Assembly (NCBI RefSeq): GCF_039645995.1
Contig: NZ_CP147920.1
Coordinates: 248,001 to 312,000, forward strand
Reading direction: 5' to 3'
DNA length: 64,000 bases
From: Sulfurimonas sp. HSL3-1
GTDB lineage: Bacteria; Campylobacterota; Campylobacteria; Campylobacterales; Sulfurimonadaceae
The position numbers and the translations under genes were made by a program. Shown here one piece after another: positions 37,614-44,624 of the stretch; within the stretch, counting starts at the first letter, position 1, and every line of letters begins with the position of its first letter. Under the pieces are notes generated by a model, which made no database searches, was not told the DNA's origin, and saw only the letters and a list, made by a program, of their open reading frames with translations.

Positions 37614-38882
37614 TTAAAGAAGGAAGAACTCGGTCAGAGAGAGCACTGTGGCCATCGAACCGAGCGTCAGGATGAAGAACTGTGCGGTGCGCCATCCAAG
37701 CTTGAGACCGCCGATCCAGAAGACGATGCCGAGTTTGACGAGCGAATTCGTTACCGAGGCGATGACGATGCCGTTCATGGCGGTGCTTTTGAGCAGTTTG
37801 CCGTCCTTGCTCAGTTCCGAGAGCGAAAGGGTGATGGCATCGACATCGGTAATACCGGAGATCAGCGAAACGATGTAGACGCCGACGTTGCCGAAGCGGT
37901 TCTCCGTAAAAGCGATCGCCCCGTAGATGACGCCGAAGATCAGGCCGAATTTGATCGCTTCGCTCAGCTGCAGCGGGTTTTTCGTGATCGCCTCGTTCTC
38001 GAGATGGATATCGGCACTCTGCGAACGGGTATAAAGGTAGTAGGTGAAGAGCAGGCCCACGGCCGTCGCGGCGAGGAAAGCGGGGGCGAGGAGCTTGGCG
38101 AGGGCGGGATAGATGACGGCCGCCTCGAAGAGGACGCGCAGGTACATGAAGGTGCAGGCGACGGCCACGCCGGCGGCGTAGTTGTTGAGCAGACTGAACT
38201 GATTTGCGAACATCTTCGAAAGCGAGACGGCCACGCCGGTGGAGGAGATGAGCCCGCCGGCAGCCCCGGTGATGAAGAGGCCGCGCTTGTGTCCGAAGAG
38301 CTTGACGGCGGCATACCCCACAAAGGAGATAGCGGCGATGATGACGGCCATCAGCCAGGTCTTGTAGGGGTTGAAGAGTTCATAGGGGCCGATCATCTCG
38401 TTGGGCAACACCGGGAGCACGATAAAGCTCATCGCCAGCAGCAAGACGGCGGCATTGATGTCGGTGGAGGAGAGGTGCGCTTCGAACTCCCGCAAACGGG
38501 GTTTGATCTCGAGGAGCACGACCATCAGAACGGCGATGAAGATGGCGTAGGACTCGAGGGACGCATAGACCATCAGGCCCAGGAGAAAGGTGACGACGGC
38601 GGCGACCTGGGTCGTCATCCCCGTTTTATGAAAGCGGGTGACCTTGAGGTAATAGGAGAGCCCGACGAGGAGTCCGACGACCGCCGTTGCGGCGAAGACG
38701 AAGCCCGGGACCGCCTCGCCGAGCCAGCCGGCCAGGTAGCCGATGAGGGCCAGCAGGGCGAAGGTACGGCTGCCCGCGAAGCTCTGGCCGCTTTGGGGCA
38801 TGCGGCTCATGGTGCGCTGCATGCCGATCATGAACCCCAGCAGCAGCGCGATGACCATCGATTTGAGAACGGCGTATTCCAT
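37614..38882 (-). CDS. MgtC/SapB family membrane protein with DUF4010
   Basis: A 422-residue inner-membrane protein with about 12 helices: MgtC-like N-terminal part (LLLGFMIGMQRTM, TFALLALIGYLAG) and C-terminal DUF4010 (GLISSTGVAVSLSKM, ISGITDVDAITLSLSEL). MgtC proteins influence magnesium adaptation and ATP synthase; the DUF4010 fusion is widespread and uncharacterised. The start is leaderless in type: TACAAT, six bases (CCTTCT), ATG, and the six bases contain no Shine-Dalgarno. Confidence 0.88.
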   Translation of the reverse strand: MEYAVLKSMVIALLLGFMIGMQRTMSRMPQSGQSFAGSRTFALLALIGYLAGWLGEAVPGFVFAATAVVGLLVGLSYYLKVTRFHKTGMTTQVAAVVTFLLGLMVYASLESYAIFIAVLMVVLLEIKPRLREFEAHLSSTDINAAVLLLAMSFIVLPVLPNEMIGPYELFNPYKTWLMAVIIAAISFVGYAAVKLFGHKRGLFITGAAGGLISSTGVAVSLSKMFANQFSLLNNYAAGVAVACTFMYLRVLFEAAVIYPALAKLLAPAFLAATAVGLLFTYYLYTRSQSADIHLENEAITKNPLQLSEAIKFGLIFGVIYGAIAFTENRFGNVGVYIVSLISGITDVDAITLSLSELSKDGKLLKSTAMNGIVIASVTNSLVKLGIVFWIGGLKLGWRTAQFFILTLGSMATVLSLTEFFLL

Positions 38883-38888
38883 AGAAGG

Positions 38889-38894
38889 ATTGTA
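38889..38894 (-). promoter_or_regulatory. -10 box TACAAT of leaderless mgtC-like gene
   Basis: An extended element TGG-TACAAT on the minus strand, then six bases, then the ATG at 38882. Predicted transcription start is the A of the ATG. A plus-strand TACAAT at 38917-38922 faces the other way for the LOG gene. Confidence 0.6.
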
Positions 38895-38949
38895 CCATGT
38901 AGACGCGGATGCATGCTACAATGGGAGATCGGAGTTGAAAGAGAAAGCT

Positions 38950-39906
38950 ATGAAGAAAAACCATGATAAAAAAGCGTTCCGCAAGCTGTTGAAACGGCAC
39001 CAGAAACCGTTGCCGTGGGAACACCCGAAGCCCGACGAGGACGACCCCAAAGCGCATAAGCGCGTAAAAGCCATCATGGCCCACGACAATTTTATCCAGG
39101 CGGACCGGGACCCGAACTTTCTCCGGCGCGACGAGGTGCGGGGTGTGCGGCTGGAGGTGGACTACTTCAAGCCCGAACTGCTGCTGCGCGAACACGGCAT
39201 CGAACACACCATCGTCGTCTTCGGCTCCACGCGGATCATGGAGGAGGCGGAGGCCAAGCGCCTGATCGAGAACCTCGAAGCGGAACGGAACGCTAAAGAC
39301 GGCGAGGCCCTTGAAAAAGAGCTGGGCATCGCGCGGCGGATCCTGGCCAAGAGCCATTACTACGAAACGGCCCGCGCCTTCGGGCGTATTGTCGGCCGCA
39401 GCGGCAAAGGGCCCGAAGATACGAAGATCACCCTGATGACAGGCGGAGGGCCGGGCATCATGGAGGCGGCCAACCGCGGGGCCTTCGACGTGGGGGCCAA
39501 ATCGATCGGCCTCAATATCACGCTGCCCCACGAACAGTACCCCAACCCCTACATCACCCCCGAACTCTGTTTCCAGGTGCACTACTTCGCCATCCGCAAA
39601 CTCCACTTCCTGCGGCGGGCCAAAGCCCTTGTCATCTTCCCCGGCGGCTACGGGACCCTGGATGAATGTTTCGAAGTGCTGACCCTCGTACAGACGCGCA
39701 AGATCGACCCGATGCCCGTCGTCTTCGTCGGCGAAAGCTACTGGCGGGGGATCATCAATTTCGAGATGCTTGTCGAAGAGGGGACGATCGACGAAGAGGA
39801 CCGGGATCTTTTCGCGTTTGCCGAAACGGCCGATGAGGCGTGGGAGGCGATTGTGAAATGGCATAAAAGATGCGGCTCGACGCTGATTCACGACCTGAAA
39901 AAATAA
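38950..39906 (+). CDS. LOG-family Rossmann protein (TIGR00730, lysine-decarboxylase-like)
   Basis: A 318-residue cytoplasmic protein. The LOG signature PGGYGTLDE and the nucleotide-binding TGGGPGIMEAANRGAF are intact. LOG enzymes cleave nucleoside monophosphates to free the base and ribose phosphate; this long form with about 80 extra N-terminal residues is common in proteobacteria and its substrate is not defined. I choose the ATG at 38950; GAGAAAG is a weak ribosome site. Confidence 0.88.
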   Translation: MKKNHDKKAFRKLLKRHQKPLPWEHPKPDEDDPKAHKRVKAIMAHDNFIQADRDPNFLRRDEVRGVRLEVDYFKPELLLREHGIEHTIVVFGSTRIMEEAEAKRLIENLEAERNAKDGEALEKELGIARRILAKSHYYETARAFGRIVGRSGKGPEDTKITLMTGGGPGIMEAANRGAFDVGAKSIGLNITLPHEQYPNPYITPELCFQVHYFAIRKLHFLRRAKALVIFPGGYGTLDECFEVLTLVQTRKIDPMPVVFVGESYWRGIINFEMLVEEGTIDEEDRDLFAFAETADEAWEAIVKWHKRCGSTLIHDLKK

Positions 39907-39909
39907 GCC

Positions 39910-40662
39910 ATGTTCTTTGCCATTATGAATTTTACGCTGTCCGGTGCCCTGGGCGTGATCGGCCTGCTGACGCTTCGGCGGGTCAGCGAGCCCAAAGAGG
40001 TCGTCTTCGCGAGCCTGCCGCTGCTTTTCGCCCTGCACCAGTTCACCCAGGGGTTCGTCTGGCTGGGCATGGGCGGGTTGATCGAACCGCGCGCGCTGGA
40101 GATGGCGGAGAGCATCTTCATCTTCTATGCCCAGGGGCTGCTGCCGTTTCTCGTGCCGCTGGCGATCTGGCTGCTGGAGCCTTCGGGATGGTACCGGAGG
40201 GTGATCGGGGTGCTGCTTGTGCTGGGCGGCATTCTGGCGGCCTATACGCTGTGGGGACTCTCCGTACAGCCGACGTACGTTACGGTGAAGCATGATGCCC
40301 TGGCCTACGTCAACGCGTGGACGCAAAAGGGGTGGATCAACATCGCCTATATTCTCACGACCTGCGGGCCGCTGGTCCTGAGCAGCAGCGTCTCCGTACA
40401 GCTTTTCGGATGGTTCAACCTGATGGGCCTGGTGGGCATTACGCTGTGGAAACCCTATGCCGTCACCTCCGTTTGGTGCCTCTATGCCGCCGTTGTCAGC
40501 ATCATGCTCTACTTCTACTTCGTTGAGCGCCGCATTGCATTCTTGCAGGAGATCCGGCGTAAAGAGACGGAGTGGAGCGGGGCGCTGATGGAGGAACTCG
40601 CACACCTTGAACGGCATTTCCCGCGCGTGCGCAGGGTGCTTTTGCACTATCGAAACCTTTAG
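39910..40662 (+). CDS. Seven-helix membrane protein (DUF6629-like)
   Basis: A 250-residue inner-membrane protein with about seven helices and a charged C-terminal tail of about 45 residues. The pattern FASLPLLFALHQFTQGFVWLG matches the family I know as DUF6629, which has no assigned function. It starts three bases after the LOG gene and its stop overlaps that of the convergent antiporter-ATPase gene by four bases. Confidence 0.72.
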   Translation: MFFAIMNFTLSGALGVIGLLTLRRVSEPKEVVFASLPLLFALHQFTQGFVWLGMGGLIEPRALEMAESIFIFYAQGLLPFLVPLAIWLLEPSGWYRRVIGVLLVLGGILAAYTLWGLSVQPTYVTVKHDALAYVNAWTQKGWINIAYILTTCGPLVLSSSVSVQLFGWFNLMGLVGITLWKPYAVTSVWCLYAAVVSIMLYFYFVERRIAFLQEIRRKETEWSGALMEELAHLERHFPRVRRVLLHYRNL

Positions 40663-43600
40663 GCCTCCGCCGGGAGGCCGTTGCGCCGTCCCCACCACTC
40701 CAGCCACTTATAGAGTTCGACGATGACGAAGAGCGGCAGCGCGATCTCGAAGATCAGTAGCCAGTCCTGCCAGCCGAGCGCAACGGTATGCAGGGCTTCC
40801 TGCAGAAACGGCACGTAGACGGCGGCGGCCTGCAGCGAGACGGTCATCACCCAGGCGCCGAGCAGCCAGGGGTTGGTCAAAAAGCCGATGATCGGCATCG
40901 GCGCATGCAGACTGCGGTAGTTGAAGACGTTCATCTTCTCCAGCACGATGATCGCGGTGAAGGCGACGGTCTGCGCAAGCATGACCGCCTGTGGCTCCGC
41001 CATGCCGGAGGCGAGATAGTAGTGGAATATCCACAGCGTCGCCCCCGCGATGTAGGCGCCCAGCAGCAGGATCATCAAGATCCCCCTTCGCTGCAGGAAG
41101 GCGCTGTTCCCTGCCCGGGGCGGGCGCCGCATAAGCCCCTTTTCCGCGGGCTCCATGCCCAGGGCGACGGCGGTCATCCCGTCGGTGACGAGGTTCATCC
41201 AGAGGATCTGCACGGGCAGGAGCAGCAGCGGGCCGCCGAGCAGGATATTGATAAAGATGGCGAGGACCTCCCCGATATTGGAAGAGAGGAGGTAGGTGAC
41301 GAACTTCTTGATATTGTCGTACTGGCGCCGTCCTTCGCGCACGGCGTTGACGATGGAGGCGAAGTTGTCGTCGAGCAGGAGCATGTCGGAGGCCCCTTTG
41401 GCGACGTCCGTCCCCCGCATACCCATCGCGATGCCGATGTCGGCGCGCTTGAGCGCCGGCGCGTCGTTGACGCCGTCACCCGTCATCGCCGTCACCATCC
41501 CTTCGCGCTGCAGGGCCTTGACGATACGCAGCTTGTTCTCGGGTGTCGTCCGCGCAAAGATCGCTTCCGCCTGCAGCGCTGACGCGAGGGCCGCGTCGTT
41601 CATGGTTTCCAGTTCCGCTCCCGTGACGGCCCGCGGGGGGTGCATGCCGATCTTTTCGGCGATGGCCATGGCGGTCAGCGGGGCGTCGCCGGTGATCATG
41701 ACGACGGCGATGCCGGCGCTTTTCGCCGTGCGGATCGCTTCGGGGACTTCCGGACGCGGCGGATCGATGATGCCGGCAATGCCCAGCAGCACAAGCTCCT
41801 GTTCGACCGTGTCGGGATCGAGCTTCGTCTCCGGGGTGAGGGTGCGCATGGCCAGGGCGAGGGTGCGGAGGCCCGACGCGGCGAGGGCGGTGTAGGCGGC
41901 TTCGAAGCGGCTGCGCGCCTCGGCGTCCAGCGGGCGTATTTCACCGTGTTCGAGATAGGAGGCCGCGCGCGCAAGAAGGACCTCCGGCGCCCCCTTGACG
42001 TAGGCGGCCCTTCCTTCATTCTCGTCGATCACCGTCGTCATTCTTTTGCGCTCGGAGTTAAAGGAGAACTCGCTGACGATGCGCACGTCCTCCGGCGCCA
42101 TCCACGCTTTGTAGGCGGCGGTGATCAGGGCGGCCTCGGTCGGCTCGCCGGTGATACCCCACGCGCCCGCTTCGCGGTGCAGTGAGGCGTGGTTGCAGAT
42201 CAGCCCCGTTTTCAGCAGCGCCAAAAGGTCGGCCCGGCCCTTGTAATCGACTTTGCGGCCGTCGGCCTCAAAATGGCCGGCGGGATCGTACCCGCTGCCG
42301 GTGAGGGTCACGCCGCCGCCGAAAAGCCAGATCTGCTGCACCGTCATCTGGTTTTGCGTCAGCGTTCCCGTCTTGTCCGTACAGATGACGTCGGCGCTGC
42401 CGAGGTTCTCCGCCGCCTGCAGGCGACGCAGCAGGGCGTTTTGGCGCACCATCGCCTTGACGCCGAGCGCGAGGGTGATCGTGACGACGGCGGGCAGCCC
42501 CTCGGGGACGACGGCGACGGCAAGGGAGATGCCGGTGAGGAACATCTCCATGACCGGTTTGCCGAAGAGGTAGCCCATGATCGCCACCAGCGCCGAGACG
42601 GCGACGGAGAGGATGCCGAGCCGTTTACCCAGGACGGCGAGCCGTTTCTGCAGCGGGGTACGGGTTTGCTCGACCTCGCTGGTCAGCCTTGCGATGCGTC
42701 CGAACTCCGTCGCCATGCCGGTGCCGGTGACGACCCCCCGCGCATAGCCGTTGGTGACGTTCGTCCCCATCCAGACCATGTCGCTGCGCTCGGCGAGGGG
42801 TGTCGCTTCGGGGATGCTGTCGGCTGATTTGGTGACGGAGGTCGATTCGCCCGTGAGGGCGGACTCGTCGGCTTTGAGATTGACGGCTTCGAGCAGCCGC
42901 AGGTCCGCGGGGACCCTGTCGCCTATTTCGAGCAGGACGACGTCGCCGGGCACCAGCACTTCGGCGTCGATTTCGCTCCGGTTGCCGTCGCGCAGCACCT
43001 TGCAGCGCGGGGAGAGCATCTTCTGCAGCGCTTCGATCGCCTTTTCCGCCTTGAACTCCTGGACGAAGCCCAGCAGACCGTTGAGGATGATAATGGCGAG
43101 GATCGTGATCGTATCCCCGATTTCGCCGACGGCAAATGAGACGACTGCCGCCGCGGCAAGGATGAGGATCAGTACGTCGGTGAACTGACGCAATAGGATC
43201 GAACCCCACCCCTCTTTGCGGACGGCCTCGATACGGTTGGGGCCGGCCTCGGCAAGACGGCTCTTGGCCCGGGCGTCATCCAGCCCCGTACCGGCATCCG
43301 TGCCCAGCAGCGCGGTGACCTCCGCGATCGCTTTGGCGTGCCACGGCGTCTGCGTTTCGGTGATGACGATGCCGGCCAAGGGGGCGGACACGACCTTCGC
43401 ACCTCCTGTGAGCGCGCTCCGCCAGCGGGAGACGATGAAGATGAAGAGCAGGGGAACGGCAATGGTCGAGAAGGAGGAGGCGGCCACCAGGGCAGTAAAG
43501 AGCTGGAGATCGATCAGCTGGGCGTCAAAGAGCAGCTTGGCGACGATGATCTCCGTTGTCAGGCGCACGTTCAGGCCGATGCCGATGGTCAGGGCCTCCT

Positions 43601-44612
43601 TGAAGGTCAGTTTTTTCATCGGCACCATCAGGAGGATCCCCGCCGTTTTCCCGATGAAGTCGGCCAAGAAGAGCCCGATGGCCAGATGGGGAGCCGCTTT
43701 TAGTCCCTCGAGGTCGATGCTCATCCCGATCCAGAGGAAAAAGATGATGCCGAAAAATCCGTAGCTGACTGCGCGGACGGCCTTGGTCGCCTCCGCCCCG
43801 GTCTTCCCCGCCCCTGAAAATACCGGCCGCATCAGCATCCCTGCGACGATGGCCCCGACGACCAACCCAAGCCCGACGTACTCCGCGAAACCGCCGAAGA
43901 TAAAAAGGACGATGATCATCAGGAGGATCAGGTTGGGGACTTTGATCTGCAGCCAGCGCGAGAGGGGGACGAGGATGAGGCTGCGGACGCCCCAGGCGAC
44001 GGCGATGAAGATGGCCGTATTGGTCAGGATGTGAACGACCTCCATTGCATCGGAGGTGATGATGCCGCTGCGCTCCCCGATCCAGACGGAGACGAGCGCG
44101 ACGAGAAAGACCTCGATGACGTCGTCCATGACCCCGGCGCCGACGATGTAGTTGCCGACCTTGGTCCGCAGCAGTTTGAACTCATCGACGATCGGGACGA
44201 TGACGGCTTCGGCCGTCGGCATCCGTGTTAGTCCGATCACGACGGCGATAAGCCAGCCGTAATCGAGGTAGAGCATGAAGCCCAGGGCGAGGAGGAAGGG
44301 AACGGAGGTATTGAGTACCGTGGCGATCAGGATGTCATTGCCCTGGCGCCGCATCGCCTTCGTGTCGATCTGCAGGCCGATAAAAAAGAGGAGGAAAAGG
44401 ACGCCGAGATCCGCCAGCACGGTGAAAACGTCGCCGTTGACCCCCTGGGTCAACATCGGTTCGATCGGCGTATAGTGTGCCCCCATCGCCACGAAGAGCG
44501 CCGCGAGGATTCCCGGGATCTTCAGCCGTTCGAAGAGGCCGGCGAGGAGATAGGTCAGTGCAAACAGCAGTGCCAGCAGCAGTAAAAAGGCGCCGAGGGT
44601 CTGATCGTTCAT
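40659..44612 (-). CDS. Fusion of CPA2-type cation/proton antiporter with P2A-type (Ca2+-ATPase-like) P-type ATPase
   Basis: One uninterrupted frame of 1317 residues. Residues about 1-400 are a full CPA2 (KefB/Na+-H+ exchanger) domain of 12-13 helices with the Asp pair D163-D164 in GVMDDVIEV. A linker of about 25 residues follows. Residues about 425-1317 are a P-type ATPase: actuator TGES at 587-590, PEGLP at 703-707, phosphorylation Asp746 in DKTGTLT, and TGDGVND at 1044-1050. Residues that bind Ca2+ in SERCA have counterparts: E704, N1112, E1115, N1140, T1143, D1144 and E1225. Thus both modules look active, and the pump is of Ca2+ or Mn2+ type. The arrangement is unusual. I infer coupled handling of a cation and protons at one site. 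It starts 12 bases after an EI24-like gene with a weak ribosome site. Confidence 0.92.
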   Translation of the reverse strand: MNDQTLGAFLLLLALLFALTYLLAGLFERLKIPGILAALFVAMGAHYTPIEPMLTQGVNGDVFTVLADLGVLFLLFFIGLQIDTKAMRRQGNDILIATVLNTSVPFLLALGFMLYLDYGWLIAVVIGLTRMPTAEAVIVPIVDEFKLLRTKVGNYIVGAGVMDDVIEVFLVALVSVWIGERSGIITSDAMEVVHILTNTAIFIAVAWGVRSLILVPLSRWLQIKVPNLILLMIIVLFIFGGFAEYVGLGLVVGAIVAGMLMRPVFSGAGKTGAEATKAVRAVSYGFFGIIFFLWIGMSIDLEGLKAAPHLAIGLFLADFIGKTAGILLMVPMKKLTFKEALTIGIGLNVRLTTEIIVAKLLFDAQLIDLQLFTALVAASSFSTIAVPLLFIFIVSRWRSALTGGAKVVSAPLAGIVITETQTPWHAKAIAEVTALLGTDAGTGLDDARAKSRLAEAGPNRIEAVRKEGWGSILLRQFTDVLILILAAAAVVSFAVGEIGDTITILAIIILNGLLGFVQEFKAEKAIEALQKMLSPRCKVLRDGNRSEIDAEVLVPGDVVLLEIGDRVPADLRLLEAVNLKADESALTGESTSVTKSADSIPEATPLAERSDMVWMGTNVTNGYARGVVTGTGMATEFGRIARLTSEVEQTRTPLQKRLAVLGKRLGILSVAVSALVAIMGYLFGKPVMEMFLTGISLAVAVVPEGLPAVVTITLALGVKAMVRQNALLRRLQAAENLGSADVICTDKTGTLTQNQMTVQQIWLFGGGVTLTGSGYDPAGHFEADGRKVDYKGRADLLALLKTGLICNHASLHREAGAWGITGEPTEAALITAAYKAWMAPEDVRIVSEFSFNSERKRMTTVIDENEGRAAYVKGAPEVLLARAASYLEHGEIRPLDAEARSRFEAAYTALAASGLRTLALAMRTLTPETKLDPDTVEQELVLLGIAGIIDPPRPEVPEAIRTAKSAGIAVVMITGDAPLTAMAIAEKIGMHPPRAVTGAELETMNDAALASALQAEAIFARTTPENKLRIVKALQREGMVTAMTGDGVNDAPALKRADIGIAMGMRGTDVAKGASDMLLLDDNFASIVNAVREGRRQYDNIKKFVTYLLSSNIGEVLAIFINILLGGPLLLLPVQILWMNLVTDGMTAVALGMEPAEKGLMRRPPRAGNSAFLQRRGILMILLLGAYIAGATLWIFHYYLASGMAEPQAVMLAQTVAFTAIIVLEKMNVFNYRSLHAPMPIIGFLTNPWLLGAWVMTVSLQAAAVYVPFLQEALHTVALGWQDWLLIFEIALPLFVIVELYKWLEWWGRRNGLPAEA
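40662..40679. terminator. Hairpin over the convergent stop codons
   Basis: GGCCTCC (40662-40668) and GGAGGCC (40673-40679) form a perfect 7-bp stem with a four-base loop. It starts on the last base of the DUF6629-like gene and lies inside the end of the antiporter-ATPase gene. No clear T-run follows. Confidence 0.4.
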
Positions 44613-44624
44613 CCCGGCCCCGGC

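Follow-up and report, generated by a model that had tools for sequence, protein, structure and literature searches.

A cation/proton antiporter and a P2A-type ATPase joined in one open reading frame in Sulfurimonas sp. HSL3-1, and the related two-gene operon of other bacteria

The window analysed here is a 64,000-nucleotide stretch of the genome of Sulfurimonas sp. HSL3-1 (positions 248,001 to 312,000 of contig NZ_CP147920.1). It carries, on the minus strand, a gene of 1317 codons that is open throughout, from its ATG to its stop codon (Table 1). A sequence-only reading, which did not give the strand, had described it as a single chain with no stop or frame change between an antiporter and a P-type ATPase, and both the frame and Pfam bear this out. 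Pfam detected Na_H_Exchanger (PF00999) at residues 19-389 (E 2.6e-39) and, in the C-terminal part, Cation_ATPase_N (424-492), E1-E2_ATPase (531-723), Hydrolase (741-1058) and Cation_ATPase_C (1128-1304). The domain limits and the residues named in that reading agree with Pfam, with the SERCA1a alignment and with the homologue alignment.

Table 1. Features of the fusion gene and its surroundings (positions in the window).
Feature	Position	Strand	Evidence
MgtC + DUF4010 membrane protein, 422 aa	37614..38882	minus	Pfam; neighbourhoods
Segment with DUF6629 gene and fusion gene, 4.7 kb	39900..44623		empty-site alignment
Fusion gene, 1317 aa	40659..44612	minus	one open frame; Pfam and NCBIfam
NapA-like CPA2 cation/proton antiporter domain (putative), residues 1-400	43413..44612	minus	PF00999; NapA profile match
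MPTAEA, residues 131-136, unwound TM4; CPA-motif positions 1-4 = T-A-E-A	44205..44222	minus	conserved 96/96; model helix broken
D163-D164, DD pair of TM5	44121..44126	minus	96/96; aligned to NapA DD
K322, TM10 Lys = NapA K305, CPA-motif position 8	43647..43649	minus	96/96; NapA alignment
Cytosolic linker, residues 401-423	43344..43412	minus	low conservation, low pLDDT
Complete P2A ATPase (by relationship), residues 424-1317	40662..43343	minus	Pfam, NCBIfam; solved relatives SPCA1, LMCA1, SERCA
PEGLP, residues 703-707, E704 = SERCA E309	42492..42506	minus	52/52 homologues
DKTGT, residues 746-750, phosphorylated Asp D746	42363..42377	minus	52/52 homologues
M5-M6 Ca2+ ligands N1112, E1115, N1140, T1143, D1144	41181..41279	minus	SERCA1a alignment; 52/52
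E1225 = SERCA E908, site I	40938..40940	minus	SERCA1a alignment; 52/52

The fusion gene travels with a gene for a DUF6629 membrane protein, and the convergent ends of the two overlap by 4 bases. The 4.7-kb segment that holds them is present in the HSL3-1 genome (G000) and in G007 and absent from G004 and G006, two genomes of the same genus. In G004, the empty site reads from window base 39,899 through about 55 bp to base 44,624, while G006 is without the segment and without most of the neighbouring EI24 gene. GC3 of the fusion gene is 0.856, inside the range of the neighbour genes, the codon composition of the segment matches theirs, and a search of plasmids gave no match to the antiporter. 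There is thus no sign of a recent foreign insert, and either gain or loss of the segment would explain its distribution. A LOG-family (lysine decarboxylase-like) gene at 38743-39906 is divergent from the MgtC/DUF4010 gene; since the longest frames of these two overlap at their starts, the LOG start probably lies further in. G031 (L066) also has a LOG-like gene, immediately upstream of its split antiporter gene. Scans for promoters and repeats gave nothing useful.

The antiporter half (residues 1-400) was compared with solved structures by a profile search, in which T. thermophilus NapA was the best match (1.4e-22 over 386 columns) and KefC the next. We read its CPA motif over the eight positions defined in PMC6181914 and obtained T-A-E-A ... 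A---D-D ... K, with TAEA, DD and K present in 96 of 96 antiporter homologues. Position 5 is A159 and is occupied by A, V, T or S in all 96. CPA1 has Glu at this position, and its absence, together with the DD pair, assigns the antiporter half to CPA2. By these residues it appears to be a divergent CPA2, scoring 99.8 on its own with the NCBIfam CPA2 model (TIGR00932), which is below the curated cut-off of 238.3. The signature of electrogenic CPA2s, Asp at positions 6 and 7 and Lys at 8 (D163, D164, K322), is found in 96/96; the Asp6/Lys8 combination has been linked to electrogenic exchange in CPA2s, and DD/K CPA2s such as NhaA swap one cation for two protons (PMC6181914). TAEA is neither the ATDI of NhaA nor the LSST of Kef (PMC6181914), so the motif does not reveal which ion is carried. 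A Kef-type K+ antiporter was rejected, as no LSST-like motif occupies positions 1-4 in any of the 96 homologues and the best solved match is NapA.

In the ATPase half (residues 424-1317), TGES was found at 587, PEGLP at 703, DKTGT at 746 and TGDGVND at 1044. Alignment with SERCA1a pairs N768 with N1112, E771 with E1115, N796 with N1140, T799 with T1143, D800 with D1144 and E908 with E1225. The ligand matches proposed from the sequence (E704, N1112, E1115, N1140, D1144, E1225) were confirmed in this way, E704 being the Glu of PEGLP. Both SERCA sites are present, site II (SERCA E309, N796, D800) as E704, N1140 and D1144, and site I (SERCA N768, E771, T799, E908) as N1112, E1115, T1143 and E1225; the seven tested ligands, D746, TGES, DKTGT and TGDGVND were identical in 52 of 52 ATPases, fused or split. 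The best solved-structure matches were SPCA1 (604 bits), LMCA1 (553) and SERCA1a (500), and although the whole ATPase sequence is nearest SPCA1, its M5-M6 segment is nearest SERCA. Scores with the NCBIfam SERCA-type model (TIGR01116, 654.5 vs a cut-off of 703.4) and the PMR1-type model (TIGR01522, 751.6 vs 798.3) are both below the cut-off, which suggests a P2A relative that is the equivalog of neither type. Bacterial P2A-like Na+-ATPases have been reported, and the habitat, judged from record titles, would be Na+-rich; the ATPase half could then be a Na+-ATPase of P2A descent, with Na+ exported by both halves. However, seven of seven tested SERCA Ca2+ ligands are invariant and, on this half, the NCBIfam fungal Na+/K+ (IID) model falls far short of the scores of the Ca2+ models, and we regard such a Na+ module as most improbable.

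The halves are connected by a flexible linker of ~25 aa, which measures 26-34 aa between fixed columns across all fused homologues and is poorly conserved in sequence. The C-terminus of a NapA-type antiporter and the N-terminus of a P2A pump are both inside, so the join is topologically simple. An AlphaFold model was computed for residues 1-1200 from 54 aligned rows, with the last membrane helices outside the model. Its mean pLDDT was 77.8 and its pTM 0.49, with pLDDT of 30-46 in the linker (401-420). The TM4 and TM11 helices of the antiporter were broken, as in the NapA fold, and Foldseek matched the modelled ATPase part with E2 structures of SERCA, 838 columns superposing at an rmsd of 3.2 A. 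A fixed arrangement of the two halves draws no support from this model.

The occurrence of the fusion was then defined in 399 Campylobacterales genomes, searched with the antiporter plus junction as query, which gave 37 matches. One uninterrupted frame of about 1309-1397 aa was detected in 26 of the 399 (HSL3-1 counted). The fused genomes span five families (f1, f4, f6, f7, f18) and the frame is kept in homologues whose halves share as little as about 50-60% identity; a genome of the same genus carries the gene at 95-97% identity. Broken frames were seen in G345, G304 and G084 (L076/L087 and L084 were scored as broken frames, not true splits), and G156 has antiporter and ATPase as two adjacent genes. 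The antiporter was without an adjoining ATPase in six genomes, two of which (G126, G182) are short contigs, and the ATPase was without antiporter in G229. A possible extra fusion in L137 (734-aa frame) was discarded because Pfam finds the antiporter alone. When the ATPase was used as query, 30 genomes were found at 61-100% identity, followed by a gap to <=44%, which defines a sharp subfamily with 26 fused members, 2 fused with a broken frame, 1 adjacent and 1 alone. The junction is therefore kept in many genomes, and a fusion peculiar to one genome or assembly is excluded. So are a missed stop between the domains and an assembly or frameshift artefact, given the single-contig 2.50 Mb genome and the conserved frame in relatives. 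The same-genus copy, the single contig and the 26 fused frames put the fusion far beyond chance: it is real and conserved, no assembly accident, and its parts belong to known families. Within genus g35 (L074, L159/L079), fused, broken, antiporter-only (G096) and ATPase-only (G229) states were all observed with DUF4010 kept each time, and they form a natural domain-loss series.

Of the 30 genomes with the subfamily ATPase, 27 have a gene for an MgtC + DUF4010 membrane protein that starts within about 300 bp downstream on the same strand. In HSL3-1 and G007 it is 1.8 kb away, behind the LOG and DUF6629 genes on the opposite strand, and it is absent from G156. It also comes after the antiporter-only genes of L069, L071, L072, L074 and L091 and after the ATPase-only gene of G229. 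A second DUF4010-type protein of HSL3-1 (31% to the first) is encoded 47 bp behind a P3A H+-ATPase gene (L161:2975-6864; C1, about 2,178,974-2,182,863). This P3A-linked protein is an independent tie between P-type pumps and the unstudied MgtC/DUF4010 family, and MgtC/DUF4010 proteins may be general companions of P-type pumps. No relevant paper on MgtC/DUF4010 proteins was found in open-access full text, the match obtained being unrelated.

An antiporter profile scan over 84,980 species' genomes gave 68 loci; taxon names of the outside loci are those of the sequence record titles. The antiporter gene is followed by the ATPase gene, on the same strand and in separate frames, in Gammaproteobacteria, Desulfobacterota, Myxococcota, Nitrospirota, Aquificota, Methylomirabilota, Actinomycetota, Chloroflexota, Hydrogenedentota and one Archaeoglobales record. 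Beyond Campylobacterota only separate genes were found in the loci examined, which rules out that the pair is fused everywhere. The antiporter is rare in these groups: of the 369 genomes in the class to which the Gammaproteobacteria locus belongs, 3 carry it, as do 3 of the 136 in the phylum of the Aquificota locus, and 0 are fused in either set. In several operons a gene of about 135 aa lies between the pair (e.g. L098, L101, L103, L105, L107, L116, L140), and the two intervening proteins tested by Pfam were both of the Usp (universal stress protein) family. Usp genes are located at about 7244-7670 in L098, at about 7180-7590 in L107 and in similar split loci; the Usp protein may be a regulator that the fused form no longer has. 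P3A H+-ATPase genes were detected just upstream of the pair in four loci (L098 3298-5910, L102 3052-5901, L106 2036-4702, L131 1475-4150), which fit a proton-cycling context. By their titles, many source records belong to hydrothermal or marine metagenome series, pointing to a marine or hydrothermal habitat. According to passages of PMC7016017, the conserved gene neighbourhoods of bacterial P-type ATPases related to SERCA/PMCA commonly include Na+-H+ exchangers and further P-type ATPases, and Na+-Ca2+ antiporters are named there as well; these passages concern general adjacency, and a single-chain fusion, a Usp gene or a DUF4010 partner is not mentioned in them. The antiporter and the ATPase very probably work together in fusion and operon alike, although the invariant catalytic and ion-site residues do not by themselves prove cooperation between the halves.

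We also looked at how the fusion could have arisen. In Campylobacterota operons with separate genes, the ATPase frame opens upstream of the antiporter stop, and likely ATPase starts overlap this stop in L068, L121 and L123 and, outside Campylobacterota, in L106 and L117, with overlapping start and stop also in Aquificota operons. Since the frames abut or overlap, one small insertion or deletion could join them. Antiporter and ATPase distances are correlated (r 0.90), also in split pairs outside Campylobacterota (0/2000 permutations), which indicates that the two genes mostly travel together. A widespread two-gene operon is the best explanation for the source of the fusion. In the ATPase tree, a well-supported clade of fused proteins includes that of HSL3-1, whereas in a second clade the fused L062, L063, L065 and L064 are intermixed with split members; the fewest fused/split changes on this tree are 4, one of them being the frame-broken L076. 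The antiporter tree agrees broadly, but the two Campylobacterota clades are not joined in it. On the trees the fused proteins fall into two or more separate groups. Several fusions, or a single fusion with later splits, would both be possible. The overlapping stops and starts, the interleaving of fused and split forms in one clade and the unconserved linker sequence are what one would expect if the fusion were a neutral by-product of abutting genes and added nothing past co-expression. The fused frame is nevertheless kept over five families while its halves have diverged to the extent given above, and we consider a neutral origin rather unlikely.

What was observed of the fusion, namely its architecture, conservation, operon relationship, linkage and intact catalytic and site residues, is probably best read as a 1:1 unit for cation efflux and pH homeostasis, made of two complete transporters that would not be obligatorily coupled. 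P2 Ca2+ pumps exchange Ca2+ for protons (PMC11977196), and the pump half would spend ATP to expel Ca2+, or perhaps Mn2+, while taking up protons. The antiporter half would draw on the proton-motive force, letting in about two protons for each ion of a second cation, most likely Na+, that it expels. Both would be co-localised on one chain, at a fixed 1:1 ratio, by the flexible cytosolic linker, and help the cell to detoxify cations and balance its pH in surroundings that are rich in Ca2+ and Na+ and possibly alkaline. In this scheme we infer the ions, their direction, the stoichiometry and the benefit of the fusion, as well as the absence of obligatory coupling. Such coupling is disfavoured by the split operons and by the genus in which fused members stand beside one genome with the antiporter only and one with the ATPase only. 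Cation export with proton return, as the sequence-only reading had suggested, is thus plausible for each half separately, but an energetic coupling of the halves is not supported. Two Na_Ca_ex proteins and two more P2-type ATPases are other candidate Ca2+ exporters of HSL3-1, so that a non-redundant role of the fusion is not obvious.

Two further schemes bring the halves closer together. In one, both would export a single divalent ion (Ca2+ or Mn2+), by the antiporter at high load and by the ATP pump at low load. The invariant E135 in the unwound TM4, beside D163/D164, brings the number of acids close to the site to three; in one genus either half can be lost while its partner and DUF4010 stay, and the pair co-occurs across phyla. 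On the other hand, the nearest solved relative is the Na+/H+ antiporter NapA, and we know of no NapA-type antiporter that moves divalent cations. An acid at motif position 3 (D3) is also found in Na+-selective CPAs (PMC6181914), and we hold this dual use of energy to be unlikely. In the second scheme, the antiporter would supply or remove the counter-ion (protons) or charge of the pump, with mutual drive or gating. The 1:1 pairing by fusion and the P3A H+-ATPase genes upstream in some operons speak for it, and both transporter families handle protons; but the linker is flexible and the pTM low, the pair is split in operons, each half is also found alone, and inward proton movement is expected in both halves, which makes a directly coupled machine very unlikely. 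More speculatively, pump and antiporter might influence each other directly, through a shared supply of protons, charge or ions or by moving the same divalent ion with two sources of energy, the MgtC/DUF4010 protein being a third subunit, a proposal that we put forward with considerable doubt.

Returning to the unit of two complete transporters, the fusion offers a fixed 1:1 pair for asking whether primary and secondary transport couple within one molecule. It also indicates the partners in a conserved, unstudied operon spread over many phyla, and hints at a role for MgtC/DUF4010 proteins. The fusion as such had been seen from the sequence of this locus; the wider two-gene operon, the single-half forms and the MgtC/DUF4010 partner were beyond the reach of that reading. 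Its remark that it knew of no characterised example agrees with the open-access literature, where no description of a single-chain antiporter-ATPase fusion was found, subscription journals being largely outside this scope. The fusion is thus apparently undescribed, new as an architecture and ordinary in its parts, with the gene linkage already noted in general terms. Among known systems, KdpFABC, a coupled K+ importer, likewise partners a P-type ATPase with a membrane protein of another transporter superfamily, but as separate subunits, and KdpA is no antiporter. The mgtCB operon has an MgtC-family gene beside the gene of a P-type ATPase, the P3B Mg2+ importer MgtB, as in the fusion loci, where however MgtC is joined to DUF4010 and the pump appears to be P2A rather than P3B. 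T. thermophilus NapA has the DD pair and the equivalent Lys (K305) in common with the antiporter half; it differs by ATSV at the columns aligned to TAEA, in our own reading of the profile alignment, and the antiporter of the fusion is joined or gene-linked to a P-type ATPase. LMCA1 retains site II alone, its site I region holding Arg795 (PMC11977196), whereas the ATPase half has both SERCA sites. Finally, SERCA, SPCA (PMR1) and LMCA1 resemble the whole of the ATPase half, and the fusion differs from all three by the complete antiporter at its N-terminus.
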